Source: Candidatus Geocrenenecus huangii (lineage in GTDB: Archaea; Thermoproteota; Nitrososphaeria_A; Caldarchaeales; Wolframiiraptoraceae). Taken from it: a DNA stretch of 45,259 nt. The stretch is taken from the NCBI GenBank assembly GCA_023268155.1, contig JALNKM010000010.1, positions 1 to 45,259 on the forward strand. The letters are read 5' to 3'. The notes below the pieces were generated by a model, which was not told the DNA's origin, did no database searches, and worked only from the letters and a program-made list of their open reading frames with translations. The position numbers and the translations under genes were made by a program. Below are positions 21,553 through 43,746 of the stretch, piece by piece; the stretch's first letter is position 1, and each line of letters opens with the position of its first letter.

Positions 21553-22134
21553 ATGTCGAGATACGAAAAGACGCCTGAACCATCGGTGGAGATACAGAAT
21601 GTGGTGGCATCCGTAACGATTAACCAGAGACTAGACCTGGCTCAGATCCAGAAGACGTTCCCAGACGTAGAGTATAAGCCGGCCCAGTTCCCGGGACTAG
21701 TCTTCAGATTGCAGAAGCCGAAGACGGCAACACTCATCTTCTCATCGGGAAAGATGGTGTGCACGGGAGCAAAATCAGAGCAGGAATCAATAAAAGCAGT
21801 ACAAACAGTAGTGAGACTGCTGAAGAAAGAAGGATTCCTAATAGCGCAGGAACCGCAAATCGAGATCCAGAACATAGTTGCATCAATCGACCTGCATGGA
21901 ACCATCAACCTGGAGCAGGCAGCCAACAAGCTCGAGAACGTCATGTATGAACCAGAGCAGTTCCCCGGCTTGATATTTAGGATGTTTGAACCTAAAGTCG
22001 TTATCCTCATGTTCGCCAGCGGCAAGCTCGTGTGTACAGGTGCAAAAACAGAGAAGGAAGTTTACGATGCTGTCTATAAGTTGAAGAAGATACTTGAGGA
22101 GAATCAATTGATAGCCTACGTTACTTCGAGATGA
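21553..22134 (+). CDS. tbp: TATA-box binding protein
   Basis: The 193-residue protein is the typical pair of TBP repeats, about residues 11-95 and 101-190. Each reads IQNVVASVTI or IQNIVASIDL, then FPGLVFRL or FPGLIFRM, then FSSGKMVCTGAKSE or FASGKLVCTGAKTE. Phe pairs that kink DNA are present in both (FPGLVFR/FSSG and FPGLIFR/FASG). It is the general transcription factor that binds promoter TATA elements with TFB. Length is full. Its last 19 bp overlap the convergent TcmP-like remnant. The first half is more GC-rich than the neighbours. Confidence 0.98.
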   Translation: MSRYEKTPEPSVEIQNVVASVTINQRLDLAQIQKTFPDVEYKPAQFPGLVFRLQKPKTATLIFSSGKMVCTGAKSEQESIKAVQTVVRLLKKEGFLIAQEPQIEIQNIVASIDLHGTINLEQAANKLENVMYEPEQFPGLIFRMFEPKVVILMFASGKLVCTGAKTEKEVYDAVYKLKKILEENQLIAYVTSR

Positions 22135-22760
22135 TCTTTGAATTCTAGAAGGCTTTTCACTCCACCGTACGCCTGAAGCCAAAGAGTTTTCAAAGTCTCA
22201 TAATCCTCTGAAGTTTTTGTTCGCAGATATTCAACATCAGAATGAATGTTAGCATCAGTGAATTGAAGCCCATGTTTGCAATATTCAAAGATCTTACTGA
22301 GTGTTCCGCTTCTAGGAGCCTTGTAAAGATCAGCCCATAGCTGCTTTACAGCCTCTATAAAATCCTCATAATCGAGTATTCTTTTCTCTATAAGTCCTCG
22401 AGCCAACATCGAAGCATTAATATTCATGATCAGATCTACTCGAAGACCACGTGTAAATTTAAGAAATGCATCATGCCTAATCTGATTGTCTAATCTTCCA
22501 AATGGATCAATAAACATGAGAATCAAAGTTTTCTCATAATTCTTAATGATCTTTTCTCTCACTTCGTAAAGTTGCTTGTTTGAATCATTACAAAAGATTT
22601 CAACATTATCTAAGTTGCCTCCGTCACCCATAGCGTCAACTAATTGCTTAAGAATAATACATGTCTGTCTATCTTTTTCGATAAAGAATAGTTTGTCAAA
22701 TTCTTTCTCGATCTTTTTAAAAGTCTTGAGACGGTTACCAATTATTGTCGGCCAATACAA
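22116..22760 (-). CDS. Three-Cys-motif partner (TcmP)-like protein, N-terminally truncated
   Basis: The 214 residues match the middle and C-terminal part of TcmP-family proteins: LFFIEKDRQTCIILKQL, then NVEIFCND, then LILMFIDPFGR, then VDLIMNINASMLARGLIE. The usual beginning, a helical part and a 'Y-x-D-G-F-A-G-P-G' cofactor-like loop, is absent. An in-frame stop lies just before the TTG start at 22760. No remnant of the missing part is readable in the 60 bp upstream. TcmP-type proteins are often found in mobile and defence contexts; their molecular role is not established. The partner gene is not seen. Truncation suggests a non-functional remnant, although the frame is open. Confidence 0.6.
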   Translation of the reverse strand: MYWPTIIGNRLKTFKKIEKEFDKLFFIEKDRQTCIILKQLVDAMGDGGNLDNVEIFCNDSNKQLYEVREKIIKNYEKTLILMFIDPFGRLDNQIRHDAFLKFTRGLRVDLIMNINASMLARGLIEKRILDYEDFIEAVKQLWADLYKAPRSGTLSKIFEYCKHGLQFTDANIHSDVEYLRTKTSEDYETLKTLWLQAYGGVKSLLEFKDHLEVT

Positions 22761-23917: not shown

Positions 23918-26869
23918 CTATATGCCCATCCAAGCCTTTAGATTCTGGTAAACCAGTCCATAAATATTTGCTAACTCTCTATCATCTATCTTTATTCCTA
24001 ACGCAGAAAGGAAACCTTCGTCTATACTCTTTCTCACGGGATCTATGTTTTGTGGATTGAACTGTTCAGGTAATCTTTTTAATTCCTTTTCGCTATTCTT
24101 TTCAAAAACGTCTACGAGCTTATTGATGGTCTCTATATTGAGCCTAGTTATATCTAACACTGGTTGAAGCCTCCATTTGGTTATAGTGAGCTCTATCCAG
24201 CGGCCCCTCGTTTCAATTCTATTAGCCAGTATTGAGAGAATTCCCCATGTCGTATTGAACCATAATACAAGCGCATTGAGCATATTCTCAGTTAATTTAA
24301 TACCCTTCTTGGGCTTCAGCCCGAAAAACATGTTACAAACAACTTCATCATTGCAGTAAAAAGCTAAGGCATGGGACGTATCAACCCATATCCTGTCTGG
24401 TACTAAGAATTTGCTTGCAGTGTAAAGGTATTTTGGCTTGGTGCATATGACTTGAGCATTAGGCTTTAATGCAATTCTTTTTCGCAATTCTTCTTCCCCT
24501 CCAATTATTGCTGGAACAGCTTCAGGTATGCCTTCACTAACCTGTTTGAAAACTTCATGGAATGTTCCTCTTCTTACAGCTAAACCGACGACATCCGCTA
24601 TTTTTCCTAAAAGTGTTATTGGCAGCTTTTTTCCACAAAGCTTGCCTGTAAAAATCTCCGCTGTAATACTGTTGAGGCTATGGCTTGGAAAGGCGCATAG
24701 CCTTCCCCAATTGTCTAAGTTTTCTACCAGATCGTTTCTTGAGAACTTATAAACATATGCTTTGCTTCCATTAAGTTCGATATAATCAGTTTTTTCGGCT
24801 CCAATTATTTTGAACGCTAAAGCTCTGGACTCCAAGGAAGTTAACGGCTTTCTAAGAAGAACCGTTATCTTCGTTTCCTCGTTTTTGTCCAGTCTCTCCC
24901 TTTTCCTTGCAACTATCAAGGCTTCGCTCAGGCTAGTTGACTCTGAGAAGTTGTAGCCGTTTTCAGCGTCAAAACTTAATACTACATGTTCTAGGTGGAA
25001 TTTCTCTAGTAAAAGGCATCTTGCAAGGAACCAGTTAGTCCCAGAAAGCAGGGACTTTGGAAGGACAAAAGCAATCTTTCCATCGTTTTTCACGAGTTTC
25101 GACGCTAAATAAAGGAAAAGTAGCCCCTCACCGGCCTGTCCTATATCAAAAAGCTCTTTTCCAAGATCTTTAAATATGCGATTATATTTCTTTCCGACAT
25201 TCCGAAGTTCACGGCTAATTTTGCTTCTGATTTCATCATATCGCTTAGTGACAGCTTTCCTAAAAGCTTCGTCAACGATAAATCCAAAAAGTTCCCCTCC
25301 CTTCTTGCCCCCTCTTCCAGTAGCCCTTGTGAAAGGCGGGTTCATAATGATGAGGTCAAATTTAGGTATACTTTCCACCACATCGCCACCAGTTATTGAT
25401 GCACTTTCCGCCCCTTCTATGAATTTTAAGGATGGCTTCTCAGCGAAGAACATAGCTATTGATGGTAAACCTTTGCCCTCAACAAATTCCAATGATCCCA
25501 AAGTAACTTTCTTATTCTCAACACCAAGTGGCACAGTGAAAGTGTTCATGCGACTAACTTGAGTCGTAGGATCTTGAAGGGCAAGATTTGTGGACGCTAT
25601 CTGAACTGCATATCTTAAAGCATCGATCCCCCATAGGCTTTCCTCAAGCATTAAACTATGAAAACCTTTAAGGTCTAGCTCACCCTCTTTGAAAGAGGTG
25701 TAAATATATAGGTCCTTTAATGCGCTATATGCCGCAATAAGCAATGTCCCGCTTCCGCAGGCAAGATCGCCAATTTTGACCTTTTTGAATTTGTTGAAGA
25801 CACCAGTTTTGGTAAAAACAGAGAGATACGCCAGAAGATAGGCCGCTGGAACCGTTGTGAAGTATGTCGCGAAGTTTTTTCTAATCGCCCAATCTCCCAC
25901 AATTTTATGGTATATCTTTCCAGAAAAGTCTCTTCTAAGAAGGGCTCGTTTTGAAGAACATTTTTCCGCTAGTTCAACTAATTTTTTAATGGCATGATTT
26001 AGAGCATCAGGCATAGTTTCAATAACTTGAATAGCTAGGTCATAAACGGGTCGATAGTCAACTTTTAATATTTCTTCAAAAGCGTTTTTCAATCCTAATC
26101 TGTATCCATATTGCTTACATAACCTGCCAGCGCTTTCTAGGCCTATTTCTGTTCTTACTGACTGATAGAAAGTTGTGCTTAATAAAATGATTAGCGCTGC
26201 TTTAGCATATAAAAGTTCATCTATCCTTTCATAGTCGCCAATAGATAACCCGTAAAGTTTATAAAATAAGTTGTAAAGTTTCTCAGCAAGTTTTTTGTTT
26301 ACATCAACACTCTTAGCCTCTAAAACGAAATCATTAATGTTTTGCTCTATCTCTGTTATTGCCTCCTTGATATCCTCTTCACTTATAACAAATTGTAGGG
26401 CCTCATTTATTGTAGAAACAAGATCCTGAATCCTAGCCTCAATCCATCCTGTAGTCCACCTAGGCAAAGTTTTTTGTCGAGTAAAATAGGCCAGTAATGT
26501 GTCAGAGACATCCTCAGGAACTATCACTTTGACTTCAAATGATGAGACCTTGAGTCTTTTTTCTAACTCGGCATCAGTGAGATTCTGAGGAAGGCTTTCC
26601 TTATAATGAAGCGCTATACCTAAATCTCCAAATCCTTCTTGAATCCTCCTTTTTACATCGTCTTCAGCGTCAGCTCTAGAGTATGATCCTTCTAAAACAA
26701 TTTTCATGCCGTTAATATATATCACAACATCAGGCCTGTCTCCACGTGAAACATACTCGCTTACAGCTTTAATTCCTAATTCTCTACTAAGCAAACGTCC
26801 CAGAAGTACATTGAGCTTGGTTTCGAAAGCTCTGCTACTATGCCAAAGGCTCATGTTAATGCAACCCAT
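23918..26869 (-). CDS. N6-adenine DNA methylase with N-terminal nuclease-like region (type IIG-like)
   Basis: The 983-residue protein has a gamma-class adenine methyltransferase core. Motif I is GDLACGSGTLLIAAYSAL near residue 370 and motif IV is FDLIIMNPPFTRATG near residue 510. WGIDALRYAVQIASTNLAL lies between them, and EGLLFLYLASKLVKNDG follows. The N-terminal part has an acidic pattern RPDVVIYINGMKIVLEGSY (D47, E60), resembling the PD-(D/E)XK core but with serine where the lysine is expected. The C-terminal 300 residues probably recognise DNA. No separate specificity, helicase or nuclease subunit is nearby, so it may be a single-chain restriction-modification enzyme or an orphan methylase. 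The gene is intact within a decayed neighbourhood. Confidence 0.8.
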   Translation of the reverse strand: MGCINMSLWHSSRAFETKLNVLLGRLLSRELGIKAVSEYVSRGDRPDVVIYINGMKIVLEGSYSRADAEDDVKRRIQEGFGDLGIALHYKESLPQNLTDAELEKRLKVSSFEVKVIVPEDVSDTLLAYFTRQKTLPRWTTGWIEARIQDLVSTINEALQFVISEEDIKEAITEIEQNINDFVLEAKSVDVNKKLAEKLYNLFYKLYGLSIGDYERIDELLYAKAALIILLSTTFYQSVRTEIGLESAGRLCKQYGYRLGLKNAFEEILKVDYRPVYDLAIQVIETMPDALNHAIKKLVELAEKCSSKRALLRRDFSGKIYHKIVGDWAIRKNFATYFTTVPAAYLLAYLSVFTKTGVFNKFKKVKIGDLACGSGTLLIAAYSALKDLYIYTSFKEGELDLKGFHSLMLEESLWGIDALRYAVQIASTNLALQDPTTQVSRMNTFTVPLGVENKKVTLGSLEFVEGKGLPSIAMFFAEKPSLKFIEGAESASITGGDVVESIPKFDLIIMNPPFTRATGRGGKKGGELFGFIVDEAFRKAVTKRYDEIRSKISRELRNVGKKYNRIFKDLGKELFDIGQAGEGLLFLYLASKLVKNDGKIAFVLPKSLLSGTNWFLARCLLLEKFHLEHVVLSFDAENGYNFSESTSLSEALIVARKRERLDKNEETKITVLLRKPLTSLESRALAFKIIGAEKTDYIELNGSKAYVYKFSRNDLVENLDNWGRLCAFPSHSLNSITAEIFTGKLCGKKLPITLLGKIADVVGLAVRRGTFHEVFKQVSEGIPEAVPAIIGGEEELRKRIALKPNAQVICTKPKYLYTASKFLVPDRIWVDTSHALAFYCNDEVVCNMFFGLKPKKGIKLTENMLNALVLWFNTTWGILSILANRIETRGRWIELTITKWRLQPVLDITRLNIETINKLVDVFEKNSEKELKRLPEQFNPQNIDPVRKSIDEGFLSALGIKIDDRELANIYGLVYQNLKAWMGI

Positions 26870-28022: not shown

Positions 28023-28673
28023 CTACTTTAATTGTATTTTCAGTTCTACTTGCTGTCCTATCTCTGGAGCATTAAGACTATGTCTAGCTACAGTTACCGA
28101 AGATTCTAGCCTAGGGTCGTAGATGGAGATCCATGGAACAAGATTGCTGAATTCCACGGCAAGTTTCGCAGATACCCATACAGGGGCCATAACGTATATT
28201 ATCATAGGCTTTGAAGGATCTACTGCTCTTTTTATATCCCACCACCGTATCCTCTTTAACTCGGAGGGTTCTGCAAAAGCGCCTTCTAGAAGTTCAGCTC
28301 TAAGAAGCTGGATTGAGCCCAGCTTAATTAAGCCAACATCTATTCTCCCATCAGCACCAAGCTTAACCTCTTTAAGTAAGCCAGCCTCAATATCTACTCC
28401 GAGACCTACATCTTTTTCATTCACGGAAGAGATAACGATTCCCATATTTGCTCTCGGCTCATAGGTCGCCAATATACGTGCAAAATGGTAATGGTGAGCT
28501 AGAAATGCATAGAGCCATTGGGGGCCACGTCCACTGATTATTAAAGGCTTAGATGGATCCACCTCGACAAGCTGGACCCCTCTTAGATCGCTTGGCTCTA
28601 GAAGCCCACTTATAGTGAATTCTAGAATCTGGACTTTCCCAGTCTTCAGAGAGAACCTTATTTTTTCATTCAA
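28023..28673 (-). CDS. csx3: Tandem Csx3 (Crn3-type ring nuclease family), two fused domains
   Basis: The 216-residue protein contains two copies of the roughly 100-residue Csx3 domain. Copy one (about 10-98) has SGRGPQWLY (47-55), the histidine segment AHHYHF (59-64) and then YEPR (71-74). Copy two (about 117-214) has YVMAPVW (160-166) where SGRGP is expected and no histidines after it, but keeps IYDPRL (184-189) and RHS (197-199). Single-domain Csx3 assembles into dimers and tetramers and cleaves cyclic tetra-adenylate, with catalytic residues contributed by different chains. The fusion may combine both half-sites in one chain. The start must be TTG at 28673, because an in-frame stop follows two codons upstream. 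It lies 65 bp from a divergent gene. Confidence 0.82.
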   Translation of the reverse strand: MNEKIRFSLKTGKVQILEFTISGLLEPSDLRGVQLVEVDPSKPLIISGRGPQWLYAFLAHHYHFARILATYEPRANMGIVISSVNEKDVGLGVDIEAGLLKEVKLGADGRIDVGLIKLGSIQLLRAELLEGAFAEPSELKRIRWWDIKRAVDPSKPMIIYVMAPVWVSAKLAVEFSNLVPWISIYDPRLESSVTVARHSLNAPEIGQQVELKIQLK

Positions 28674-28738: not shown

Positions 28739-29872
28739 ATGATGATCTTCAACCTTAAGCCTGAATGGGTGGAGCCAAGCTTTAGCATATATTACCTCGA
28801 TATAGTATACTCCTATCCAGCTATATTGGAGGTGGATTTTCTATCAATCTTTAAGGGAGCTCTCTTATCAGTCGAGGTAGAAAATGAACCAACAAATATC
28901 CCTAGAAAATCTTTAAAATATTTCGTGAACGGTGTCTGTAGATATCCCGTAGTATATTTTAGTATTAACTCTTCTTCCGACAAAGACGAAACAGAAAGTG
29001 ACACAAAATGGGTACGTGAAAGTGGTATTACGATACCGACGTTAGTAGACTGCCAAACTATGAAAGAGCAGCTTAGAAATTTCTTGGAGAATAATAGATC
29101 CACCATCATTCAGAAGAAGAATGAAAGAAGTCAACTATTCACTATCGATAACTTCCTGTGTGCACTTCTAGTCTATAGTTCTCCCTTGATCTGTGATATC
29201 CTTCTAATGAAAAGTAGCATCCTAGAACATGTCCTAAATTCTTTTGAAGTAGCTGGGTTTAGAGCCAGCTTAATAAAGAAAGCAAAACTTTTAGAAAAAA
29301 GAGATGATGGGTGGAGATCCAATAATGGAGGAACTTGTAATCCATCCATCGAGAATCAAGCTAAAGAGAAGTTTCAAAGTATAAGATCTATAATAATGAT
29401 AATCCCAATAGTGAGAAGCATGTACTTTCATACAGAGTTAAAAAGGTTTATAGAGGAAAAAGGTGACATAAAATGTCTATTTCCAAATCTAGAAAAACTA
29501 GTCTTCGTATACACTAAAGAGAGTTGTGAAGACGCAAAGACGATAATATCGGTAGTCATGGGAAAGAATAGAAACGACATCCAGACTGACAAAAGAGAAG
29601 TAAATAAAAATGAAATTGGTGAGATTGTTAAGAATCTTGCAGCATACGAGCTCCCTAAAGACGTATTGATATTAACTATTGGCGAAGTCCCGAAGAGTGA
29701 GCTCATAAAGTTTATAGATCCGATCTTAAACACTAGGCTTGGAATATTATTATGGAGGCTTAATGTATACAAAGAGAAATTAGAAAAGTTTATTGAAGAA
29801 GCTTTGAATTGTAAAAAAGTTTCGGATGTCGGGGGCATCGAGAAGATTGAACTCCAATTGCTCGAGATATGA
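28739..29872 (+). CDS. Unknown CRISPR-linked protein A
   Basis: This 377-residue protein belongs to no family I recognise. Residues about 1-75 are a beta-rich start (SIYYLDIVYSYPAILEVDFL). Then follow a charged linker and a helical region (about 110-200). The C-terminal part, about 215-340, alternates strands and helices as in a Rossmann-like domain (IIMIIPIVRSMYFHTELKRF, LEKLVFVYTKESCEDAKTII, KDVLILTIGEVPKSELIKFI). The sequence RSMYFH fits the loose R-x4-H pattern of HEPN RNases but sits beside a beta strand, so it is weak evidence. It opens a two-gene unit (46-bp overlap with the next gene) divergent from csx3. A role in cyclic-nucleotide signalling is inference. Confidence 0.6.
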   Translation: MMIFNLKPEWVEPSFSIYYLDIVYSYPAILEVDFLSIFKGALLSVEVENEPTNIPRKSLKYFVNGVCRYPVVYFSINSSSDKDETESDTKWVRESGITIPTLVDCQTMKEQLRNFLENNRSTIIQKKNERSQLFTIDNFLCALLVYSSPLICDILLMKSSILEHVLNSFEVAGFRASLIKKAKLLEKRDDGWRSNNGGTCNPSIENQAKEKFQSIRSIIMIIPIVRSMYFHTELKRFIEEKGDIKCLFPNLEKLVFVYTKESCEDAKTIISVVMGKNRNDIQTDKREVNKNEIGEIVKNLAAYELPKDVLILTIGEVPKSELIKFIDPILNTRLGILLWRLNVYKEKLEKFIEEALNCKKVSDVGGIEKIELQLLEI

Positions 29873-31199
29873 ATGTGATCTCTCCCCAAAGAAGATAGGT
29901 TTAAAATTAACCTCAAATAATCCTGAGTCATCTAAGATAAAGTGTCAGGACCGTCTCATCCATGAACTTCTCAAAACAGATCCTGACCGAACCTGGATCT
30001 TCTTGTCAACTCATGGAATGTGGTTAGAAAAAGTTAAAGATAAAGAAGTAGGCTTGTTGATAGATTGCTTAACTGGGATTAGGAGGTTGGTCATTAATCA
30101 TGAAAACTATGAATTAATCTTCGCTATCCTATCTATACCTATGTTTGATATGCATGTCGAAGAGGTTTCATATACAAAGAATACAAAGGAAAAAGTAGAG
30201 AAGACTGAACAACAGTCGACTATTACCTCTAGAGGTATTCACAGCAAGGTTAGAAGAGGTGAGATACTCAACACGGATATCGCTAGTGGAAAGCCGCTGG
30301 AGGTTACACCTCTGACCTTTCATGCGGCGACATGTGGGTATCATAGGCTTGGATATTCCCTTAGACTTGCTGCTCTTCAAAGTGCTCTTTCACGGGAGGT
30401 TGCATGTTTCTTTTTTGAAATAAAACCTCCCCATAAAACATACGCTAGTATGTATGGTCTGAGCTCAGAATCTGAAGCTGCTGGAGCATTAGCATCTTAT
30501 ACTTCAGCCTTAATTAGATATTACAGTGAGATAAATCTTGAAGCAGTAGACGCTGAGATGACTACATCTATAATCAAGGTTAGAGGTGTTTGCAAAGAGA
30601 ACATCGTTAAATCTTCAAGAAAACTACTATATTATATGTCAGAGAATCCCCACGGCATAGAAGCAAGATTTGATAAAGATTCTAGAGACCTCTTATTACG
30701 TCTCCCAGATGAAGAAGCAGATAGAGCTCTTCAAGATATTCAAAAAGAGTTAAAACCTTTTAGAAGATTGGTTTATGTGGAAAAGCTGAAGAAAAAATTT
30801 GAAGAGTGGCAGAAAGAAGATATTGAGAATATTCTCCTCGATTTTTCTGAGCAGATGAATACATGTGATTTATATCTACTCTCTCTACTCGTTAAAACCT
30901 ATTTTCCTGAATCTAAACTAAATTCCACATGGATAATATGCACCCCTCTAACATATCCGATGGCCTCTATAACATCCGCATACGCAACCTGGCTCTCGAA
31001 TCTTGGTAAGATTAGAATCGTGATGTCGAGTGAAGATGTGTTGGTAGCTAAAACCTTAGCCGAGAGTATCTCCGAGGAGATAAAGAAGAGTAAAGTTCTC
31101 TACTTAGCAGCAGGTCCAACTTCCCATGTACTTAGCTTTGGAAAGACTTTGAAAAGTAGGCTAGGAGATAATATGATTTGTGAAGCATTAACACCCTAA
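29826..31199 (+). CDS. Unknown CRISPR-linked protein B
   Basis: The 457-residue product has no clear family match. The last 95 residues show a Rossmann-like alternation reminiscent of CARF domains: WIICTPLTYPMASITSAYAT, then KIRIVMSSEDVLVAKTLAE, then KVLYLAAGPTSHVLSFGKTL, with Thr/Ser-Pro and Gly-Pro-Thr-Ser turns after strands. The central part is helical and rich in acidic residues. The first about 20 residues overlap the previous gene and may not be translated; a later start near 30020 (MWLEKVKD) is possible. It ends 28 bp from the convergent end of the cmr operon. The CARF reading is a guess that needs profile comparison. Confidence 0.6.
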   Translation: MSGASRRLNSNCSRYECDLSPKKIGLKLTSNNPESSKIKCQDRLIHELLKTDPDRTWIFLSTHGMWLEKVKDKEVGLLIDCLTGIRRLVINHENYELIFAILSIPMFDMHVEEVSYTKNTKEKVEKTEQQSTITSRGIHSKVRRGEILNTDIASGKPLEVTPLTFHAATCGYHRLGYSLRLAALQSALSREVACFFFEIKPPHKTYASMYGLSSESEAAGALASYTSALIRYYSEINLEAVDAEMTTSIIKVRGVCKENIVKSSRKLLYYMSENPHGIEARFDKDSRDLLLRLPDEEADRALQDIQKELKPFRRLVYVEKLKKKFEEWQKEDIENILLDFSEQMNTCDLYLLSLLVKTYFPESKLNSTWIICTPLTYPMASITSAYATWLSNLGKIRIVMSSEDVLVAKTLAESISEEIKKSKVLYLAAGPTSHVLSFGKTLKSRLGDNMICEALTP

Positions 31200-31227: not shown

Positions 31228-31764
31228 TTACGGATCAGCATCTAATACTCGTGTTTCAAGTGTTGCGACATCATTGATACGATTAACTTTGAAGAGAATA
31301 GAGATTACTTTACTTAGAACTTCTTTATCAGTATAGATTTGGAGCGGGTCTTTAATGCTAACTACGTACTCTTTATCATCTAATAAATCTAATAACCATA
31401 ACTCACTATACGTAATCAAATCGAAGAGTAGTTCTTCCAATACTTTCTGAATCTTCTCTGCCGGTCGTACGATGGCAAATATGAATGTTGGTAGCTCGAA
31501 GGGGGAGCCTAGGTTACATATTATAGTGATATCATTGCAATCTTTAACCATTTCAACTAATCTTCTTTCATTGAAAAGTTTCATTACATTTTCCAAAAAC
31601 TCATCTTCATTTTCCAGATCATGTATAAAGTGGATCTCGTGGGTACCACTACTGGACTTCCCAAAATATATAGAATTTGGTTCACTTAGTTCAGCCTTCG
31701 TTTTTAATTCTTCTAAAAGCTTTTCATGGAATTTACAATTTATCTTTTCAGATAACCAGATCAA
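31228..31764 (-). CDS. Unknown third gene of the cmr-attached triad
   Basis: The 178-residue, acidic protein has no motif I recognise. It has a patch IHFIHDLENEDEF near residues 50-60 and strands ITIICNLG and TFIFAIVR in the middle, suggesting an alpha/beta domain with a helical C terminus. It begins 3 bp after the stop of the PD-(D/E)XK-like gene and is the last gene of the long minus-strand run starting with cmr4. By analogy with other ATPase/nuclease defence sets it may be a regulator or inhibitor, but nothing in the sequence shows this. Confidence 0.65.
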   Translation of the reverse strand: MIWLSEKINCKFHEKLLEELKTKAELSEPNSIYFGKSSSGTHEIHFIHDLENEDEFLENVMKLFNERRLVEMVKDCNDITIICNLGSPFELPTFIFAIVRPAEKIQKVLEELLFDLITYSELWLLDLLDDKEYVVSIKDPLQIYTDKEVLSKVISILFKVNRINDVATLETRVLDADP

Positions 31765-31767
31765 CTA

Positions 31768-32505
31768 TTAAGTCACCTCAATACGTGGAGAATTTACATC
31801 CACATAAAATACTATCTTAGGTCTACCCTCATCATCTAAAAATTCAGAACTACATCTAATACTGTGCCTAATTTGCGCTAATTTATTATTTAATTTATAC
31901 TCTAATTCTTCCGCCCACATTTTTATCTTTTTTCTTACCTCTTGAGGATTTTCTATCTCACTACTTTCTATAATTATATGGACGATACACTTTTTCTTTA
32001 CTAGGTAATTGTAATCTCTGTCTAAGAGATTTTTCTTTACTTTAGAGATAAGTTTTGATGATAAGAAACATTCTAATTTAGTAGCTATCTCATCAATATC
32101 ATTTTTAATTATGTCCTCTACAGTTAGATGCTTCTTTGATTTAAACTTTTTGCATTCTACTCCTATTAAGACCTCGTCGTTACTGTCATGTTTTAACAGG
32201 ACTATTCTGTCAACCAGTTTAATGCTGTCTTTATTAGTTTTGTTTTCACTGGCTATCTCTTTTATAAGGTTTGAAAACTTTGGAACCCCGACGGAGGACA
32301 AATCTACAAAGACTAGTTCTTTCAACCGAAGTCCAGAGTTTTCTACGTACTTATTTACAACTTTTAGATAACAAGCACATTCATCAATTAATTTATCAAT
32401 TTTCTTATTTTTACAATTTAGATGATCACTCTCAAGTTTTTGAACCCATTCACGTACAAGTCTTTTATCCCATTCTATGCAATCCGCCATGTAATCACCA
32501 GGCAT
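31768..32505 (-). CDS. PD-(D/E)XK nuclease-like protein of the cmr-attached triad
   Basis: Of 245 residues, the centre reads KLVDRIVLLKHDSNDEVLIG followed by VECKKFKSKK: an aspartate, a beta hairpin and then E-C-K, the classical D-x(n)-E-x-K arrangement of the PD-(D/E)XK fold. Residues about 10-60 are helical and would supply the first acidic helix. The C-terminal part (about 165-245) is a helix and two strands (IVHIIIESSEI, KIVFYVDVNSP). Its ATG overlaps the TAA of the ATPase gene by one base (TAATG), so the two are translationally coupled. A DNA- or RNA-cutting effector driven by the ATPase is a plausible reading. Confidence 0.65.
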   Translation of the reverse strand: MPGDYMADCIEWDKRLVREWVQKLESDHLNCKNKKIDKLIDECACYLKVVNKYVENSGLRLKELVFVDLSSVGVPKFSNLIKEIASENKTNKDSIKLVDRIVLLKHDSNDEVLIGVECKKFKSKKHLTVEDIIKNDIDEIATKLECFLSSKLISKVKKNLLDRDYNYLVKKKCIVHIIIESSEIENPQEVRKKIKMWAEELEYKLNNKLAQIRHSIRCSSEFLDDEGRPKIVFYVDVNSPRIEVT

Positions 32506-33725
32506 TATAAGATATTTTTCACTAGATCTATATCAATCATTGATCTGAGTGTGGTTCTAGCATCAGGGGTTAAGATAAGTCTCCCTTCATTACCAAACTT
32601 AAGATTAATTATCTCAACTTTTCCATCCTCTTTATAGATATAATAGAAGTTGATGTCTTTTGGATTCACTTCTCTTTTTATAATTTTGGATCTGAATGCA
32701 TGGAGCGGTATTGGGCTATGAGTGGATAAAATCAGAATAGAATTTTTCCCTTCAAGCTCTTTTAACATAGAACTTAACAGCTTGTTAAAGTTTATAACAT
32801 GTATTCCTATCTCAGGTTCTTCTATTATAAGAGCCTGATTGTTTTCTACGATAATTGACCCCAAGAGAAGTAGAATTGTATTGCGCTCACCACAGCTTAG
32901 AACTCTAATATCTTTTCCATCGATTCTTATGGAAGAGTCTTCAAAGGTTTCCTGAAGATCCACTTCAATAGATGGTTGCTTACTAATAATCTCTAGACTC
33001 CTCAGACAGCCTTCCAGCTCAGTTAATACCTTTTCCTCCCTCACTCTTTGTACTACTAAGTTGAACAATAAATCTAGTAGATTCTCTCCCATTGACGATA
33101 GCCTTGATGAAGTAATAGATCTAAACTCTCCAAATTTTATTTCACTTGGAGCAGTTCTATGGTGGGAGATGTAAATGAAGTCAGACTTTAATAAACCCTC
33201 AAGATACTTTTTTATGTTTGGTTGTTTTTCTGCATTTTCAATAACATCTTTAATAAACTTCTTCTCTTCTCTTCCATATCTATCTTCTATAAATCTCTTA
33301 CCCTCTAGAACTATTTCCCTGATTTCTTTAGTTATTTCACTTATTTTATCAACAGTTAAATCGTTTATCTCTGCTATCGGGACTTCTCTACCAGTACTTG
33401 ATAACTTGGCTTGAAAAAGTTGGCTATCTTTATTGTATGTGATCGTGAATAGGTAATCTAAGTCTTGTACTCCTATTGACATATATTTTTCAGATAGATT
33501 TACTAAATCGTTAAACCTGATTCCTTGGAGGTGTTTAAGAGAGCTACTGGATATCTTATCTCCCTCAAGCTTTAACCTTCCATTCAATATATCGATGAAT
33601 ATTGCGAGTGATTCAAGTATAGAGCTTTTCCCAGCACCCATCGGTCCCCAGAGAACGTTAACCTTGTTTATATCCATCTTGACTTCTTCTTTAAGGCATT
33701 TGTAACCTTTTACAGTTAAAATCAT
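32505..33725 (-). CDS. RecF/ABC-type AAA ATPase of the cmr-attached triad
   Basis: The 406-residue protein starts ILTVKGYKCLKEEVKMDINK, typical for AAA15/AAA21 ATPases, and has Walker A GPMGAGKSS (27-35). An ABC signature LSCGERNTILLLL follows with Walker B ALIIEEPEIGIH, then D-loop/H-loop LILSTHSP. A helical insert spans roughly 100-230. This is the architecture used by the ATPase parts of Septu, PARIS, Gabija-type and OLD-like defence systems, though the partners differ. No TOPRIM domain follows, so it is not a standalone OLD nuclease. It starts 5 bp after cmr3 in the same direction. Confidence 0.85.
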   Translation of the reverse strand: MILTVKGYKCLKEEVKMDINKVNVLWGPMGAGKSSILESLAIFIDILNGRLKLEGDKISSSSLKHLQGIRFNDLVNLSEKYMSIGVQDLDYLFTITYNKDSQLFQAKLSSTGREVPIAEINDLTVDKISEITKEIREIVLEGKRFIEDRYGREEKKFIKDVIENAEKQPNIKKYLEGLLKSDFIYISHHRTAPSEIKFGEFRSITSSRLSSMGENLLDLLFNLVVQRVREEKVLTELEGCLRSLEIISKQPSIEVDLQETFEDSSIRIDGKDIRVLSCGERNTILLLLGSIIVENNQALIIEEPEIGIHVINFNKLLSSMLKELEGKNSILILSTHSPIPLHAFRSKIIKREVNPKDINFYYIYKEDGKVEIINLKFGNEGRLILTPDARTTLRSMIDIDLVKNIL

Positions 33726-33730
33726 CTGTC

Positions 33731-34807
33731 CTAATACCCCCTATAGTGGGGTATTGCGGTTGAGAGAAGCTTCAGATACCATTCACCGACATTGTGTAAT
33801 GTCTTCTCATTCTTGATCTTCAAGAGTGACCCTGGAATCAGTGCTGGAACATGCTTCTTAAATCTCTTCTCTCTGATAAGCCATCCCCCGATCAATTCTA
33901 TTTTCCCCAAGACCCATTCAACTTCTCCGAGTCCCAAAGCGTAAATCTTTCCATCGGCTTTACTTAAGGCAATATGTGAAACTGCTAAGAGCGTCTTCTC
34001 AGCTTTAGGTTCATGCTTAAGTTGGAAGGCCTTTACCAATGGAACGTCACCCTTCTTAACAGTAGCTTTAGCAACTCCTCCCTCACCTCCAAACCTTAAC
34101 TTCACGTCTCCAAATCCTCTGACATCTATTTTCCTGAAGAGATCTCCAGGCAATCTGACGTCGCATCCAAAAGCTATCTTGGATGCTATCCCGTACCTAT
34201 TGCTGTCAAGAGTATAAGATTCTATCATACTTCTTAAGTAGAGCGTCCCATGCTGAACTACTTTCTTATCTCTATTCATCTCAAAACTAGTTCTCTCACT
34301 TGCTACTTCTTTAAGGACTGCAATTGAATCAGGATTAACGTTCCACCCGAGCTCAGCATCTTTGAATTCTATTTCAGCAAGTAGGAGCCCTTCGGGTTTA
34401 GCACCCCTCCTACCAAATCTAGTTATCCTCGGGAGAGGTAATCCGTCGCTTCTTTCATACATTAGTTTAGGCTTTTTCTCTCCAGCCTCTCCAAATTCTA
34501 GGATTATTCCATGAACTTTATCGAACGGGGCTGGGACAAAATACCTGAAGTTTCCTTCGAATTGGGCTACCAAATAAGGTCCCCTGACCTGTATATCCTC
34601 TCTTTCGACAAGCTCTTCGATATCTTGAAATGTGAGTTGACAGATCTCACTGATTACTCTTAGAGAGGCGCCTCCCAAAGCATAAGATGAGGGGAAGATT
34701 GCGCTTTTAACATACTCAGAGGGTGACAATTCTTGTCGCGGTCCGAAGAATATCGGCGTCAAGGGCTCAAAATGTATAGATAGATACGCCTCACCCATAA
34801 AGCTCAC
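33731..34807 (-). CDS. cmr3: Type III-B Cmr3
   Basis: The 358-residue RAMP protein has the Cmr3 opening (LSIHFEPLTPIFFGPRQEL, then a segment YVKSAIFPSSYALGGASLRV) and the glycine-rich RAMP segment KLRFGGEGGVAKA. It forms the foot of the Cmr complex with Cas10/Cmr2 and binds the 5' handle of the crRNA. Its first 17 bp overlap the end of cas10. It is followed after 5 bp by the ATPase gene, which is unusual because cmr3 is normally bordered by other cmr genes or by the array. Confidence 0.9.
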   Translation of the reverse strand: MSFMGEAYLSIHFEPLTPIFFGPRQELSPSEYVKSAIFPSSYALGGASLRVISEICQLTFQDIEELVEREDIQVRGPYLVAQFEGNFRYFVPAPFDKVHGIILEFGEAGEKKPKLMYERSDGLPLPRITRFGRRGAKPEGLLLAEIEFKDAELGWNVNPDSIAVLKEVASERTSFEMNRDKKVVQHGTLYLRSMIESYTLDSNRYGIASKIAFGCDVRLPGDLFRKIDVRGFGDVKLRFGGEGGVAKATVKKGDVPLVKAFQLKHEPKAEKTLLAVSHIALSKADGKIYALGLGEVEWVLGKIELIGGWLIREKRFKKHVPALIPGSLLKIKNEKTLHNVGEWYLKLLSTAIPHYRGY

Positions 34808-37800
34808 CTAATGCGATTGGGCTGGATTCTCTTATTGCACCAACCTGGCATAAAGCTGCTTTAAGCAGCTCGGCGAGAAGGTTAGTCTGCCCTCTCGGTG
34901 TTAAGAATTTTCTATCAAAAAATTGTTCAAGCTCACGTATCAAACCTTCATCTACACCCCCCCTCACAGCTTTAGACCTGAAGAGCTTTAGGTCTTCATA
35001 CTCTTCTAAACGCTCAAATCTTAAAATCTTCTCACTAAAGCCGTCAACGAACTTGTATCCACCATCTCCCGCTACAAGTCCCTTGTTCTGGCTCTGCAAT
35101 ACAGCTGAAAAAGCTAGAAGTGTTAGAAGTTCAACTAGCTTATCAACCTCTATAAGTTTGAACTGGATGTAAGCTTTAGAGCCGCCTACCCTATAGGAGA
35201 TGACTAGAGAATCTTTTTTCCCAGCTATAGATTCTACCTTTTTTGCCTCCTCAACTAGTACACTGACTTCTTCTACTGTTTTCCTTAATGGGAAGAATGC
35301 GTCGAAGAATATTATTCCAAAGCTCTGTGAGGCTTTAGAACCCAAACCAGGGATCAGGTACTTAACGTTATCCAGTACACGATCTTCTAGTTCTATAAAT
35401 GTTCTTGAGAATTCTTTCCTTAACCTGCCAATTATCCTCAATGCATTCTCTGGTGGAAGCATCGCTAGTATGTCATCGCCGCCTGAGTATATGAGCAATC
35501 CACCATTCTCTTGAATATGCTTAGAAGATTGTATTGAGTTAACGTTGAGTGCTCTGCTGACAGTATATGTATAACTAATTCCAGGCAACCAGGGTAGTTT
35601 GCTTATACTCCTACTTATATCCTTAAGCTTCTTAACCTCTTCCTTATCCAAATTCTTATCGCTAAGCCCTGTGAAGAACTCTAATAATCTTCTTGGAATG
35701 ATTTCAAAGATCTCTCTCTCATATGCTCCACGGCCTGACAATATATCTGACATGGAGTCTCCATCCCCTTTCACCATTGCGAGATAGTCGGAACACCATT
35801 TGACGATCGCGCGGACGGAGCCTTTCTTCATCTCCTTAAGGAGATTGATTAGTACAGAGGAATTCCATACTTGAAGTCTCTCTCTTAAATTCTTAATGCT
35901 TTTATCTAGATACTCTTTCAAATCCTTTATGTTGGCTAAAACATCCTGAGCTGATCTAAACTGAGCTGATGAAGATGGAATTCTTAGGTAATGTTCTTCA
36001 TAAAGCGACGGGAGAAACATTTTAAAAGCTTGAAAAGCATTCTCAAAGTCTTCGTATTCGTCAATACGACAAATTGGCAATTCTCCGAAAAGTGCATTAT
36101 ATTTCTTTATAATAAGATTACACCCTTTCCAGAATATTTCTTTAGCGGTTTCATTCTTGACGAGTGGTGAAGTCGTAATCGCTGCTAAGGTAGAGGCAAA
36201 CGCTGAGCCGGCTATCTCTTCCGTCGATGGATAATGTTTACGTTTTTCTATGCTTTTTCCTCTACGTTTATTAACTAGTTCCATTAAAACATCGTCGACC
36301 ACCGAGTATAAGCTTCTCTTAACAAGACAGTGTAGACATAACCTTTCTCCATCTTTTATCCAGATACCTTCTTTATGAAATTTTTTAATCGTCTCATATA
36401 AATCTTCTAACAAATTCTTATTATCTCTAACCTCATCCGCCTTAATTGCTTCTATAATGGGCTCTCGCCTCCAACACATGTTACAGAGCCGTCTACGTTC
36501 TCGCACATCTACCCATTTAAGATCTGTGACCGACTTAGTAATTGAATAAGTGTAGTGGAAGGATGTTAAGGCTTTTACAAAGACCCCCCACTCATAAAGA
36601 GAGAATTCTTCAGACTCAGGGTCCCCCTCCTTCTCTGACATAGCCTCTGAAGACTTCTTCTCCGATATCTTTTGTAGTTTTTCTAGAACCCCTCTTAGGT
36701 ATACTGCTTGCTCTACTTCTTTATGTTCTATAAGATTTCTAGCTCCAAGCTCTCTAAGTAGGTTAAGTCTCTCAACTTTATTCCAAGGTATCCGAATATA
36801 TGCTATATTTACGTTATATGGCATCTCTTCAGCATTTTCCTCCCATATATCCATATCTCCATACACTTTCACGTAATTGGATCCTTGGATTTTTTCCTTT
36901 ACGTCACTTAATTTTCTCATAACTATACTCGCTACTTTCTTCCAGGCTTCCCGATACCAGTCTGAGATATTTGAAGAGAAGTGATTAACCTTGCTGCCTG
37001 GAAGGATTACCATTACCGCTCCGGGTATGACTGGTAATGTGAGCTCATCATCTTCAATAGATACATTAATGTTTTTTGATGCTAAGTAGGCATCGTATAA
37101 GGGGGTAGCGTGCAGTAGAGGTCGTATGATAGAACAAGGACCTAGTTCATCGGCTAATTTTACTAGAACGTAGAATGTGAGTATAGAGATGAGATAACTT
37201 CCAGACCAAAGATCTCTTGGAAGCTTTGAAATAGATATGAATTCTTGCTTATTCTCGACCTCCCAGTAAAGTAAGCCTATTTCAGTTTCTCCTTCTAACC
37301 ATGATGTGAGCAGTGACGATGTTGCGTAGAGATGGTCGAATATCGTCGAGCTTGGAGATCGTGTATCGGCTGGAAGCAATGTAGCCCATGAAGCATCAAG
37401 GCCGAATGCTTCTCTCAAGGAGCATACGAATGAGGCTGGTAAGACTCTCCAGAGAGCATGATACTCATAACCTTTCTCAGCCTTAATCATCACTTTTGAG
37501 ATTAGTTCGATGAATTTTTCAACAGCCTTCTTGAACTCCTCTCTCCTTAAATGTCCACTTTCATCGTAGAGAAGTCTTCTTACCTCTCTCGTAAGGTCAT
37601 GTTCTGAAAGATCTCCAGGATGCTTGAAGATGATCTTATTAACAAATGTTCCACCTTCCTCTTTAGAAGGAGAGAAGACGTATGTGATGGAGCGGTCGAT
37701 AGAACTTGATGCAACATCACATTTTTTAATAATAGGTCTTCCAATATTTTTAACTGAATATATTTTCGCCGCTAAATCATCTTTACCCTCCTCCTGCAAT

Positions 37801-38018
37801 TTCTTTGCAACCTCCTCAATTATGTACAGAGCGAGTCTTTCGTGAATATCTACAGCCCCCTCCTCCTCGTATCTCTTCATTCTATCTCTACCGATTACGT
37901 ATTCTAGTAGTTCATATACATCGCTACCCTTCTCAGCTGAGAAGAGCAATGGTTTGAAAGGCGGGTCATGTAATAGAGCAATGATCTTCAGCGCAGAGAG
38001 ATCAAGTGAAATACTCAT
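34791..38018 (-). CDS. cmr2: Cas10/Cmr2, large subunit of the type III-B complex
   Basis: The 1075-residue protein begins with a short HD-like motif LLHDPPFKP (H17, D18). A zinc-finger-like region with CNMC and CLHC lies near residues 515-575. The Palm domain carries YSGGDDILAML, GGDD at 846-849. Intact GGDD is the signature of cyclic oligoadenylate synthesis. The HD motif suggests possible single-stranded DNase activity, though the second histidine-rich part of a full HD is not obvious. Size is above the usual 850-1000 residues. It overlaps cmr6 by 4 bp (ATGA type) and cmr3 by 17 bp. Confidence 0.93.
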   Translation of the reverse strand: MSISLDLSALKIIALLHDPPFKPLLFSAEKGSDVYELLEYVIGRDRMKRYEEEGAVDIHERLALYIIEEVAKKLQEEGKDDLAAKIYSVKNIGRPIIKKCDVASSSIDRSITYVFSPSKEEGGTFVNKIIFKHPGDLSEHDLTREVRRLLYDESGHLRREEFKKAVEKFIELISKVMIKAEKGYEYHALWRVLPASFVCSLREAFGLDASWATLLPADTRSPSSTIFDHLYATSSLLTSWLEGETEIGLLYWEVENKQEFISISKLPRDLWSGSYLISILTFYVLVKLADELGPCSIIRPLLHATPLYDAYLASKNINVSIEDDELTLPVIPGAVMVILPGSKVNHFSSNISDWYREAWKKVASIVMRKLSDVKEKIQGSNYVKVYGDMDIWEENAEEMPYNVNIAYIRIPWNKVERLNLLRELGARNLIEHKEVEQAVYLRGVLEKLQKISEKKSSEAMSEKEGDPESEEFSLYEWGVFVKALTSFHYTYSITKSVTDLKWVDVRERRRLCNMCWRREPIIEAIKADEVRDNKNLLEDLYETIKKFHKEGIWIKDGERLCLHCLVKRSLYSVVDDVLMELVNKRRGKSIEKRKHYPSTEEIAGSAFASTLAAITTSPLVKNETAKEIFWKGCNLIIKKYNALFGELPICRIDEYEDFENAFQAFKMFLPSLYEEHYLRIPSSSAQFRSAQDVLANIKDLKEYLDKSIKNLRERLQVWNSSVLINLLKEMKKGSVRAIVKWCSDYLAMVKGDGDSMSDILSGRGAYEREIFEIIPRRLLEFFTGLSDKNLDKEEVKKLKDISRSISKLPWLPGISYTYTVSRALNVNSIQSSKHIQENGGLLIYSGGDDILAMLPPENALRIIGRLRKEFSRTFIELEDRVLDNVKYLIPGLGSKASQSFGIIFFDAFFPLRKTVEEVSVLVEEAKKVESIAGKKDSLVISYRVGGSKAYIQFKLIEVDKLVELLTLLAFSAVLQSQNKGLVAGDGGYKFVDGFSEKILRFERLEEYEDLKLFRSKAVRGGVDEGLIRELEQFFDRKFLTPRGQTNLLAELLKAALCQVGAIRESSPIALGELYG

Positions 38019-38803
38019 CTACCCACCTCCAACTCTCCATATCCTAGCATCGTTTTTGCGCCAACACCCTCCCATATCACAGTCTTGACGTAACCTTTCA
38101 TTTTATCGAAATACTTAACCGCCTCTTTCTTTGCAGCGACAAAGAAGGTAAACTCTACACCTCTTGCAACGGCCGGATAGATTATCGGCGTAGGTTTTGC
38201 TTTATGTTCTTTAATACTCTCTTGATATATTGATGTAGTGACTTCTGGTTCAAGTATTCTTCCCTTTTCCCCTTCTTTACTTGGATACCCGTCTGTGAAG
38301 ACTACCGATGAAGCTTGTCCTAAATTCCCGAGAAGTTCATCTATTGAGTTTAAAGACAGCTCGCTTGGAGGGATGCTCTCAAGATAACTTCTAACTACAC
38401 CTTTCAAACTTGATGCTGGAATATATGGAATGCCGAAAATTGGATGAAGTATTGTTCCATATTCGAAGAGTAAAGCAGAAGTATCATTTCTAGAATGAAT
38501 TATAAGACGGGATACTGCGCGTGCTTTAACCCTGAAGACGGCTCCGCCTAACCTCTGCTCATAGTGTTGCTTAAGTCCCTCCTCCAATGAATCTAGGAAT
38601 CTATTTATGAAAAAAGATGACTGAGAATACTTTTCATTCACTATTTCAATAAGCTTCTTTAAAAGCTCTCTTTTAACATCTTTAGCTTTAATTAACTTGA
38701 ATACGCCCAGTCTACATAATGTTACAGGGTCTTTACAATATTTATCTAATAACTCATTAAATTCATCGAGTTTATAACCGAATATGTTTATAGAATCTAC
38801 CAA
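38015..38803 (-). CDS. cmr6: Type III-B Cmr6
   Basis: The 262-residue RAMP protein has IPYIPASSLKGVVRSYL and the Cmr6 segment SSVVFTDGYPSKEGEKG. A glycine-rich C-terminal GAKTMLGYGELEV is the typical RAMP G-loop. It caps the head of the Cmr complex near the 3' end of crRNA. It overlaps cmr1 by 7 bp and cas10 by 4 bp, so the genes are coupled. Confidence 0.92.
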   Translation of the reverse strand: MVDSINIFGYKLDEFNELLDKYCKDPVTLCRLGVFKLIKAKDVKRELLKKLIEIVNEKYSQSSFFINRFLDSLEEGLKQHYEQRLGGAVFRVKARAVSRLIIHSRNDTSALLFEYGTILHPIFGIPYIPASSLKGVVRSYLESIPPSELSLNSIDELLGNLGQASSVVFTDGYPSKEGEKGRILEPEVTTSIYQESIKEHKAKPTPIIYPAVARGVEFTFFVAAKKEAVKYFDKMKGYVKTVIWEGVGAKTMLGYGELEVGR

Positions 38804-39933
38804 ATTCTCACCTCTTGAACATTGTATCCTTTTTTCCGCATATACCCCAAGAACATTGATTCAAGAGATTTATACGCTGAGTCTAGCTTTTCTTTAATAT
38901 TTATTATATTAAGTTTCCTATCTCTCCCTCTCCATTCTATATTATCTGGCCAGTCACTAGATTTAAAAAGGCAGGCTGTGGCAAAATCTCTATGTACACT
39001 GAATATCAGAGGAGATGCTCTACGTTGAATCTCTCCAGAGATGTATCCTGTACCTTTAACTTGACGTGGGAGACCGAGGATCCATGCTATAAGTTTAAGT
39101 CTAAATGGATCTTCACCATTTTCAGGAATAACCATTCTTCTTTTCGTTCGTAATGTAAATTCTTGGAGGTCTGTCAAAACTCTTCCAACCTCCTTGCCCT
39201 CAAAAGGAATATACCATAGCTTAAAGAAGTCTGGTGCAACTGATGGTATCGGTGGATAATTCTTAATCTCCACCTGTTTCTTTACAGGTAATGCTTCATT
39301 TAGTATGTCTCTTAAGGCATCTGGGAAGATCCATCTCTTCAAGCTTTCTGGAAGCCCCACTCTATCTTCAACGATCTTAAAATCTATGCATCCTAGACCT
39401 CTTCTACTACCCTTCCCAATTCCGGATAGTAGAAGCCCAGAGACAAGACTTAAAATAGCGATTCTAACATTTTCATCTTTTACTGTTCTTCTTTCTTCTT
39501 GGAATGAGAATAAGTATACACTTAGGGAGCCTCTAATCGATTCTATATAGTTAAGTATATTCCCTCCAAGTGTTAATAGACTTACTCTAGGAGGTATTCC
39601 TGATTGCTTAGGCTTTATCTGTCTGTATATGGGAGGCTTATCTCTTGTAAATCTTAATGCTAGCCTCGATGATTGAGATCCTCTTCTTCCTGCGAATCCT
39701 AACACCATGCCTACTTCGTCTTTTACTTTTGTTTCGATATCCGTGTAGCCTTGTAATAGATGTCTTCCAGAAAGGATTGCTCTAAACCACCATCTCCATA
39801 AACCTTTAATGCTCTGAGTCCTCAATTCTTCTTCATGAAATTCTGAGTATGCTTGTGTATCATATCCGCCGATGAGTAAAGGCGTAGAGTTTTCTACGTT
39901 CAACTTAAGTACCTCATATATCAAATTGGACAC
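38797..39933 (-). CDS. cmr1: Type III-B Cmr1
   Basis: The 378-residue RAMP protein shows LKLNVENSTPLLIGGYD and the strongly conserved LRTQSIKGLWRWWFRAILSG near residues 35-55. A glycine-rich GKGSRRGLGCI appears later. It forms the head of the Cmr complex with Cmr6 and binds the crRNA 3' region. The gene follows cmr5 without a gap and overlaps cmr6 by 7 bp. Confidence 0.93.
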   Translation of the reverse strand: MSNLIYEVLKLNVENSTPLLIGGYDTQAYSEFHEEELRTQSIKGLWRWWFRAILSGRHLLQGYTDIETKVKDEVGMVLGFAGRRGSQSSRLALRFTRDKPPIYRQIKPKQSGIPPRVSLLTLGGNILNYIESIRGSLSVYLFSFQEERRTVKDENVRIAILSLVSGLLLSGIGKGSRRGLGCIDFKIVEDRVGLPESLKRWIFPDALRDILNEALPVKKQVEIKNYPPIPSVAPDFFKLWYIPFEGKEVGRVLTDLQEFTLRTKRRMVIPENGEDPFRLKLIAWILGLPRQVKGTGYISGEIQRRASPLIFSVHRDFATACLFKSSDWPDNIEWRGRDRKLNIINIKEKLDSAYKSLESMFLGYMRKKGYNVQEVRIW

Positions 39934-40395
39934 CTATTGCACTTTTGTAATTAGCGCTTCTGCAAATTTCTTCAACCATCCAGCAAACCTTAAGGCCTGG
40001 TCTTCTATAACCATTAAGTTCTCAGGACTTGAAGTAAGACTTTCGATGAGTTTTCCTAGTGAGGCATCATTCTTGGATAGATTGATCTTCTCAAATAGGA
40101 TGCAAAACGAAGCACCATATATGGCATATCCAGCATCTTCTCTACCTTCTGGAGGCATTTTAGAAAGCCCTGTCAACCATCTGAAAGCATTCTTCACTAA
40201 AACTTCTTCCGCTTTAGCGTAGATGTAGGAGATTGTTGATAGTATGCCTGCCTTAAACAAGTAGCTATAGAGTTCTCTACATCTACTCCTAACAGATTCT
40301 TTAACATCATCTGAGCACTCTTCACTAACTTTTTCTATTATTTTATAAGCTTCTTTTGCTAGTTCCGTAGATGTAAGAATTTTCACCATTACCAC
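39934..40395 (-). CDS. cmr5: Type III-B Cmr5 (small subunit)
   Basis: The 153-residue all-helical protein has the Cmr5 pattern of long amphipathic helices, including RCRELYSYLFKAGILSTISY and a helix GYAIYGASFCILFEKI. It lines the inner face of the Cmr filament beside Cmr4. It overlaps cmr4 by 7 bp. GTG at 40395 or ATG at 40389 could be the start; the latter would leave only a one-base overlap. Confidence 0.88.
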   Translation of the reverse strand: MVMVKILTSTELAKEAYKIIEKVSEECSDDVKESVRSRCRELYSYLFKAGILSTISYIYAKAEEVLVKNAFRWLTGLSKMPPEGREDAGYAIYGASFCILFEKINLSKNDASLGKLIESLTSSPENLMVIEDQALRFAGWLKKFAEALITKVQ

Positions 40396-43464: not shown

Positions 43465-43467
43465 GCA

Positions 43468-43746
43468 ATGTACACTCTAGTAATCTACGATATAACTGAT
43501 GATGAGGTTAGATTGAGGATAGCTCAAGCATGTAGAGAAGTAGGCTTGGCTAGAATACAGAAGAGTGCGTTCCTCGGCATAATAGATTCTCAGAAGAGGA
43601 AGAATCTAGTTATCAAGCTTAAGAGAATCCTAGGGTCAAGCAAGGGAAACATACAACTCTTCACTATATGCGAAGCAGATATGGCTACACGGGAGATGAT
43701 AGGCGAAGAGATAGAATATGAGGAAGAAGGTATAGTGTTCCTATAG
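43468..43746 (+). CDS. cas2: Cas2
   Basis: The 92-residue ferredoxin-like protein has YTLVIYDITDDEVRLRIAQA with the conserved aspartate D8 and LARIQKSAFLG. The C-terminal strand FTICEADM supports the fold. It dimerises between two Cas1 dimers during spacer integration. The gene lies directly between cas1 and cas4 with 0-3 bp spacing. Confidence 0.95.
   Translation: MYTLVIYDITDDEVRLRIAQACREVGLARIQKSAFLGIIDSQKRKNLVIKLKRILGSSKGNIQLFTICEADMATREMIGEEIEYEEEGIVFL

Follow-up and report, generated by a model that had tools for sequence, protein, structure and literature searches.

The ancillary nuclease Can1 of type III CRISPR systems comprises two CARF domains together with two PD-(D/E)XK domains, of which one is active and the other degenerate, and responds to cA4 (PMC6981274). 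In archaea, Csx1 is the dominant type III effector (PMC11229360). Many systems have no assigned effector: in one survey, this applies to 133 type III loci that are cyclase-competent (PMC11229360), and another reports 31 loci in which a ring nuclease is present but an effector is missing (PMC12409355). Here, we analyzed two overlapping genes, A and B, on a stretch of 45,259 nucleotides from Candidatus Geocrenenecus huangii (contig JALNKM010000010.1, positions 1 to 45,259; referred to as the window). With a probability of roughly 0.6, we propose that A-B is a two-subunit ancillary nuclease of a type III-B (Cmr) system that is activated by cyclic oligoadenylate (cOA). The pair, its conserved linkage, the fold-level resemblance of the B C-terminus to CARF domains and the PD-(D/E)XK motif of the A proteins are computed results, while complex formation, ligand, activation and substrate are what we infer.

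By analogy, A-B would work most like Can1. Its resemblance to Can1, Can2 and Card1 (DUF1887) would lie in combining a CARF-like sensor with a PD-(D/E)XK-like nuclease at a type III locus that signals through cOA. In A-B, however, these putative parts are distributed over two genes that overlap, with the nuclease N-terminal and the sensor C-terminal, and neither A nor B matches PF09002 or a CARF family, sequence similarity to Can1 and Card1 being low. Split, reordered and without a PF09002 match, the pair is not a member of Can1/Card1 by the tests run on its sequences. By the same kind of evidence, it is not Csx1/Csm6 either: these CARF-HEPN ribonucleases are comparable as ancillary cOA effectors, but A and B have neither a Csx1 family match nor a conserved R-x4-6-H HEPN motif. 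Among domain-sized structures, the CARF domain of Cam1 comes closest to the C-terminus of B, yet Cam1 is a membrane effector, whereas B is much longer and lacks any obvious transmembrane segment. Proteins comparable to the Crn3/Csx3 and Crn1/CARF ring nucleases are encoded beside the pair, namely Csx3 or a CARF-like protein C whose ring-nuclease activity is a guess; they are partners rather than relatives of A and B. A literature search limited to open papers found no heteromeric CARF effector, although a prior description is possible.

The gene pair and its surroundings in the window

Gene A (28739-29872, plus strand; 377 aa) and gene B (29826-31199, plus strand; 457 aa) both start with ATG and overlap by 47 nt. 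Protein A appears to consist of a PD-(D/E)XK-like N-terminus, a helical middle and a Rossmann-like C-terminus (residues ~215-340). In B, a poorly modelled N-terminal region precedes a predicted CARF-like Rossmann domain (residues ~335-457). Scored for host-like codon use, A and B are positive in the frame that encodes them and negative in the other five. Against profiles built without them (leave-one-out), A and B of the window reach E-values of 8e-38 and 8e-65, respectively. As frame and sequence are kept in distant archaea, both are real genes and not chance ORFs. A preliminary description of this DNA had pointed out two large overlapping genes of no recognised family between csx3 and the cmr-linked genes. 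Both ORFs are indeed found there, with csx3 divergent upstream and the cmr-linked genes convergent downstream; the peptides quoted at the time occur in A and B, and searches of both proteins against Pfam, PADLOC, NCBIfam and PDB sequences yielded no match. The absence of Csx1 and Card1, which had been claimed for the window, extends to the entire genome, in which Csx1 (TIGR01897, PF22230) and the Card1 endonuclease (PF09002) went undetected.

The csx3/crn3 ring nuclease gene (28023-28673, minus strand; 216 aa) lies 65 bp upstream of A and is divergent from it. Its product matches PF09620 in two stretches (E = 5.2e-28), corresponding to a tandem Csx3 domain. This Csx3 thus carries a duplicated domain in one chain, of which the second half is divergent. 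On the other side of the pair, a minus-strand block comprises, promoter side first, cmr4-like, cmr5-like, cmr1, cmr6-like, cas10, cmr3, AAA_15, X and Y. The cmr4-like (40389-41336) and cmr5-like (39934-40395) genes were named by gene order and direct sequence reading, cmr1 (38797-39933) by TIGR01894 (E = 1.1e-10), and the cmr6-like RAMP gene (38015-38803) by its position and direct sequence reading, a gene of this kind occupying the same place in a related locus (L090, see below). The cas10/cmr2 gene (34791-38018; TIGR02577, E = 5.4e-46) encodes an intact GGDD cyclase motif and an N-terminal HD motif, and is the only Cas10 detected in this genome. It is followed by cmr3 (33731-34807; PF09700, E = 3.8e-7) and, directly downstream, by an AAA_15 ATPase gene (32505-33725; 406 aa; PF13175, E = 1.1e-13; PADLOC NsnB, E = 2.9e-23). 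Its partner, gene X (31768-32505; 245 aa), encodes a PD-(D/E)XK-like pattern (D ... G-V-E-C-K-K), and gene Y (31228-31764; 178 aa) is the third gene of this cmr-linked AAA-X-Y module.

Beyond the cmr genes, cas1/cas2/cas4-like adaptation genes, named by eye (41520-44328), precede a CRISPR array (44467-45221) with at least 12 copies of GAATCTCATAAAGAGAATTGAAAG that runs nearly to the end of the window. Elsewhere in the window, the minus strand encodes a 983-aa N6-adenine methyltransferase-like protein (23918-26869) resembling PglX/type IIG enzymes, likely another defence gene, and a protein (22116-22760) that resembles the three-Cys-motif partner protein TcmP, as judged by eye only.

Relatives of the pair and their genomic linkage

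The pair is nearly an orphan and belongs to a small family that was reached by iterative searching only, with members in at least six archaeal genomes and seven loci, the window included. Single-protein searches found no relative of B among phages and plasmids or GTDB contigs, nor of A or B among viral contigs and 150 related genomes; a later search of viral contigs for A-B relatives was equally without result. The first relative came from a search of 398 genomes of the phylum, after which alignments reached Methanodesulfokora and a relative. Further matches from the 398-genome search in two genomes, G381 and G078 (E 0.003-0.004), were left out of the family counts. The loci outside the window belong to the Pyrodictiaceae MAG WANQ01 (L078/L086), two Desulfurococcales MAGs (L084/L087 and L085/L089), Candidatus Methanodesulfokora washburnensis, which has two (L090 and L088), and genome G459, found among relatives of the Methanodesulfokora genome (L100). 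Among the ORFs of around 30 other cmr/csx3 neighbourhoods, A, B, X and Y are absent outside these loci. Leave-one-out E-values are 2e-18 (A) and 4e-43 (B) for L078, and 2e-8 (A) and 8e-48 (B) for L084. For L100, B reaches 3e-19 and A only 0.28, so that A was placed there by position and motif.

At every B locus with enough sequence, A lies directly upstream of B, overlapping or abutting it; L085 is truncated by a contig end, its A falling outside the visible sequence. The overlaps amount to 49 nt in L078, 20 nt in both L090 and L088, 62 nt in L100 (where the start codon is uncertain) and 0 nt in L084. Such overlaps would be typical of translationally coupled subunits. In L088, gene A (L088:3809-4892) is split by a frameshift beside an A-rich stretch, which may be a sequencing error, a pseudogene or programmed slippage.

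Linkage to cas10/cmr recurs across lineages, as is looked for in a type III accessory gene. The cmr genes adjoin the pair in five of the seven loci, in differing orientations, and Cas10 is encoded in all six genomes. The type III association made in the preliminary description is thereby borne out; an occurrence mostly in genomes without type III, which it had named as speaking against its idea, is the opposite of what was found. In L090, a single strand carries cmr1-cmr6-cas10-cmr3-AAA-X-Y-A-B-csx3. The gene content of the window is identical, but A-B and csx3 are oriented differently, so that cmr, the AAA module, A-B and csx3 are all common to both. L088 reads cmr1 (cut)-cmr6-AAA-X-Y-A-B up to the contig end. 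In L078, A-B-C is located upstream of cmr, the operon being complete, and in L100, A-B is divergent from cmr. In both Desulfurococcales MAGs (L084, L085), A-B-C is located beside a transporter; cmr does not adjoin, and Cas10 is encoded elsewhere in both genomes.

Gene C in the latter arrangements (L078:9548-10102; L084:8864-9406; L085:2925-3485) directly follows B and encodes a CARF-like protein (DISGGTQLVAIA) of around 184 aa with a DISGGTQ motif, the copies being about 48% identical. PADLOC matches to it include CARF with E-values of 5e-4 to 6e-3 and Csa3_N with 0.004. The expected co-occurrence of the pair with Csx3 is seen in two loci: a tandem csx3 accompanies it in the window and in L090, where the duplicated Csx3 adjoining A-B is 46% identical to that of the window, whereas the three loci with gene C show no csx3. 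That C acts as a ring nuclease replacing csx3 is a guess; it is possibly a new ring nuclease or a third subunit.

In three of the seven loci (window, L090, L088), the AAA-X-Y module separates the cmr genes from A-B, always in the same gene order. The AAA_15 ATPase of the window is 31% identical to the gene at the same position in L090. X has no match in Pfam, and neither X nor Y matches a family, but the D and the V-E-C-K of X are invariant in all three loci. AAA-X-Y is a candidate for a second type III accessory nuclease module.

Predicted domains of proteins B and A

Protein B was modelled with AlphaFold2 from a six-sequence alignment, as the single-sequence model reached a pLDDT of only 36. 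The resulting model has a pTM of 0.59, with residues ~320-457 mostly at pLDDT 75-94 and the N-terminal 250 residues poorly modelled; nonetheless, a stretch P-L-x-F-H-A-x-T-x-G-x-H-R-x-G in that N-terminal part is strongly conserved in the window, L088 and L090. In a Foldseek comparison of the model with the PDB, CARF proteins make up 12 of the approximately 19 domain-scale matches (rmsd below ~6.5 Å, counted by hand) among the top 50. Cam1 comes first (8t64, probability 1.00, TMt 0.55), followed by Card1, Can2 and Csm6 of T. thermophilus. Other Rossmann folds (FNR, methyltransferase and others) match as well, and a viral fold library returned only generic Rossmann matches. The best CARF match has an E-value of 0.015. 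At the sequence level, PADLOC models, including those for CARF, did not match any of the seven B members, and an hhalign comparison of B with C, although in register at the GG loop, was not significant (probability 2%).

Rossmann and CARF domains bind their ligand in loops right after the central strands. In B, eight of the eleven residues that are invariant in the domain lie in the four loops following strands 335-341 (E342, Q343), 367-373 (T373, P374, L375), 396-400 (S402, D404) and 424-428 (G430) (p = 8e-5), the other three being D348, Y386 and Y426. Based on this model, the C-terminal ~120 residues of B probably form a CARF-like domain with predicted ligand loops. The CARF domain that had been suspected at the C-terminus of B is thus supported by fold and with wider borders (~335-457), but not by any single match with an E-value below 0.001.

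The N-terminus of A shows E-P-S-F ... E-[VIL]-D ... E-x-K, in the order of the PD-(D/E)XK core. In the window, the corresponding residues are E12, E31-V-D33 and E46-V-E48, with Glu at the position of the Lys. The equivalents of E12, D33 and E46 are kept in all A members that hold the region. The Lys of E-x-K is present in three of five members (L078, L088, L090), or four of six with L100, and is replaced by Glu (E-x-E) in the window and by Thr in L084. NERD profiles match at the motif in two members, weakly (E 0.024 and 0.038). When the A profile was run, leaving one out, against 4112 ORFs, a set enriched in such nucleases by the way it was gathered (Hjc and NERD/Mrr proteins from loci of the Card1 endonuclease profile, the PDDEXK_10 protein from the csx3 search), the best non-members were a DUF3782-PDDEXK_10 protein, an Hjc-type resolvase and a NERD/Mrr-type nuclease. 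Their E-values are weak, and all three align to A on E-x-D...E-x-K. This motif (residues 12-48), which the preliminary description missed together with the second cmr-linked nuclease candidate AAA-X-Y, appears to be the most promising site for an effector activity. A of the window, with E-x-E in place of E-x-K, may or may not be catalytic itself; an active site of the E-x-E form is known from BamHI (E111/E113).

Residues ~215-340 of A follow a strand-helix pattern that includes T-K-E-S-C-E-D and G-E-x-P-K and that may correspond to a Rossmann-like or CARF-like C-terminus, as the preliminary description had proposed. Profile comparison with hhalign found nothing between A and C or between A and B. 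Two other assignments were discarded. A PADLOC match of the middle part of L084 A to Cas8b (E = 1.9e-4) is shared by no other member and was taken as chance. HEPN was rejected for A and B, as the R-x4-H occurrences in the window (RSMYFH, RLVINH) are not conserved across the alignments.

Proposed mechanism and competing explanations

In the proposed mechanism, Cmr would bind foreign RNA, upon which the cyclase domain of Cas10 (GGDD) would make a cyclic oligoadenylate. This would most likely be cA4, since Csx3/Crn3 degrades cA4. The ligand may bind the CARF-like domain of B, probably jointly with the Rossmann-like C-terminus of A, and thereby activate the PD-(D/E)XK domain at the N-terminus of A. 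Activated A would then cut nucleic acid and slow the infection, after which Csx3, or the CARF-like C in other lineages, would clear the signal. The GGDD motif of Cas10 is intact in the window, L090, L078 and L100. The Cas10 of L090 (L090:1961-5131) has its HD motif replaced (LYSSPF for LLHDPPF) and keeps GGDD; due to this loss of the HD motif, L090 should depend on effectors or signalling. In keeping with A-B as the effector, a Csx1 CARF domain went undetected in five of the six pair-bearing genomes; genome G452 carries five Csx1 genes elsewhere.

These Csx1 genes count against the cOA-activated nuclease, as do the lack of an individually significant CARF match for B, the absence of the Lys in A of the window and of L084, the sharing of three of seven loci with AAA-X-Y and the location of the pair away from cmr in the two Desulfurococcales MAGs. 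The earlier suspicion that the pair is the missing effector is partly borne out; the AAA-X-Y genes (31228-33725) compete for the same role. In the window, L090 and L088, they separate cmr from A-B, and X, coupled to the AAA_15 ATPase, carries a D...E-x-K motif of its own. This would fit a pair that senses or regulates through cOA without nuclease activity of its own and recruits or regulates an AAA-X nuclease as the real effector. The domain of A would then be a DNA/RNA-binding relic, for which the lost Lys in the two A proteins and a precedent in Can1, whose nuclease-like domain without active-site residues probably aids DNA binding (PMC6981274), can be cited. Nonetheless, A-B occurs without AAA-X-Y in L078, L084 and L100, and the A proteins of L078, L088 and L090 retain E-x-K, which makes this explanation unlikely, albeit the strongest of the competing ones.

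Somewhat less likely still is an accessory role in type III immunity without cOA sensing, in which the Rossmann domains would bind another ligand such as NAD, SAM or a nucleotide or act as a scaffold, for instance during adaptation or the handling of crRNA. The Rossmann fold is promiscuous, matches of B extend to FNR, methyltransferase and other folds, and the CARF similarity of B is not significant by sequence; yet csx3 or a CARF-like gene adjoins the pair, Cas10 is cyclase-competent and the domain-scale matches are mostly CARF. The pair could also be a defence or toxin-like system in its own right that lies beside cmr only because both occupy a defence island. Such independence could account for L084 and L085, where the pair sits beside a transporter, and for the large, defence-like N6-methyltransferase near the pair in the window. 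It is improbable given that cmr adjoins in five of seven loci in differing orientations, that gene order is kept in L090, L088 and the window, and that Cas10 is present in six of six genomes. Linkage and ring nucleases are thus what render both of these explanations less likely.

Returning to the cOA-activated nuclease, we tentatively suggest, at odds well short of even, that A and B each provide one CARF-like half of a single asymmetric cOA pocket. The pair would then be an obligately heteromeric two-gene CARF effector, in essence a Can1 that is split and has its domain order reversed. It would be rare and scattered across Thermoproteota and archaea related to Korarchaeia, and would have escaped notice for want of a match to any CARF or nuclease model. 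For archaea, in which Csx1 otherwise dominates, A-B offers a concrete candidate to fill part of the missing-effector gap. If the proposal is true, A-B would be a heteromeric CARF effector in which the nuclease is reordered, and a handful of small proteins from named genomes would allow direct tests of the missing-effector question.
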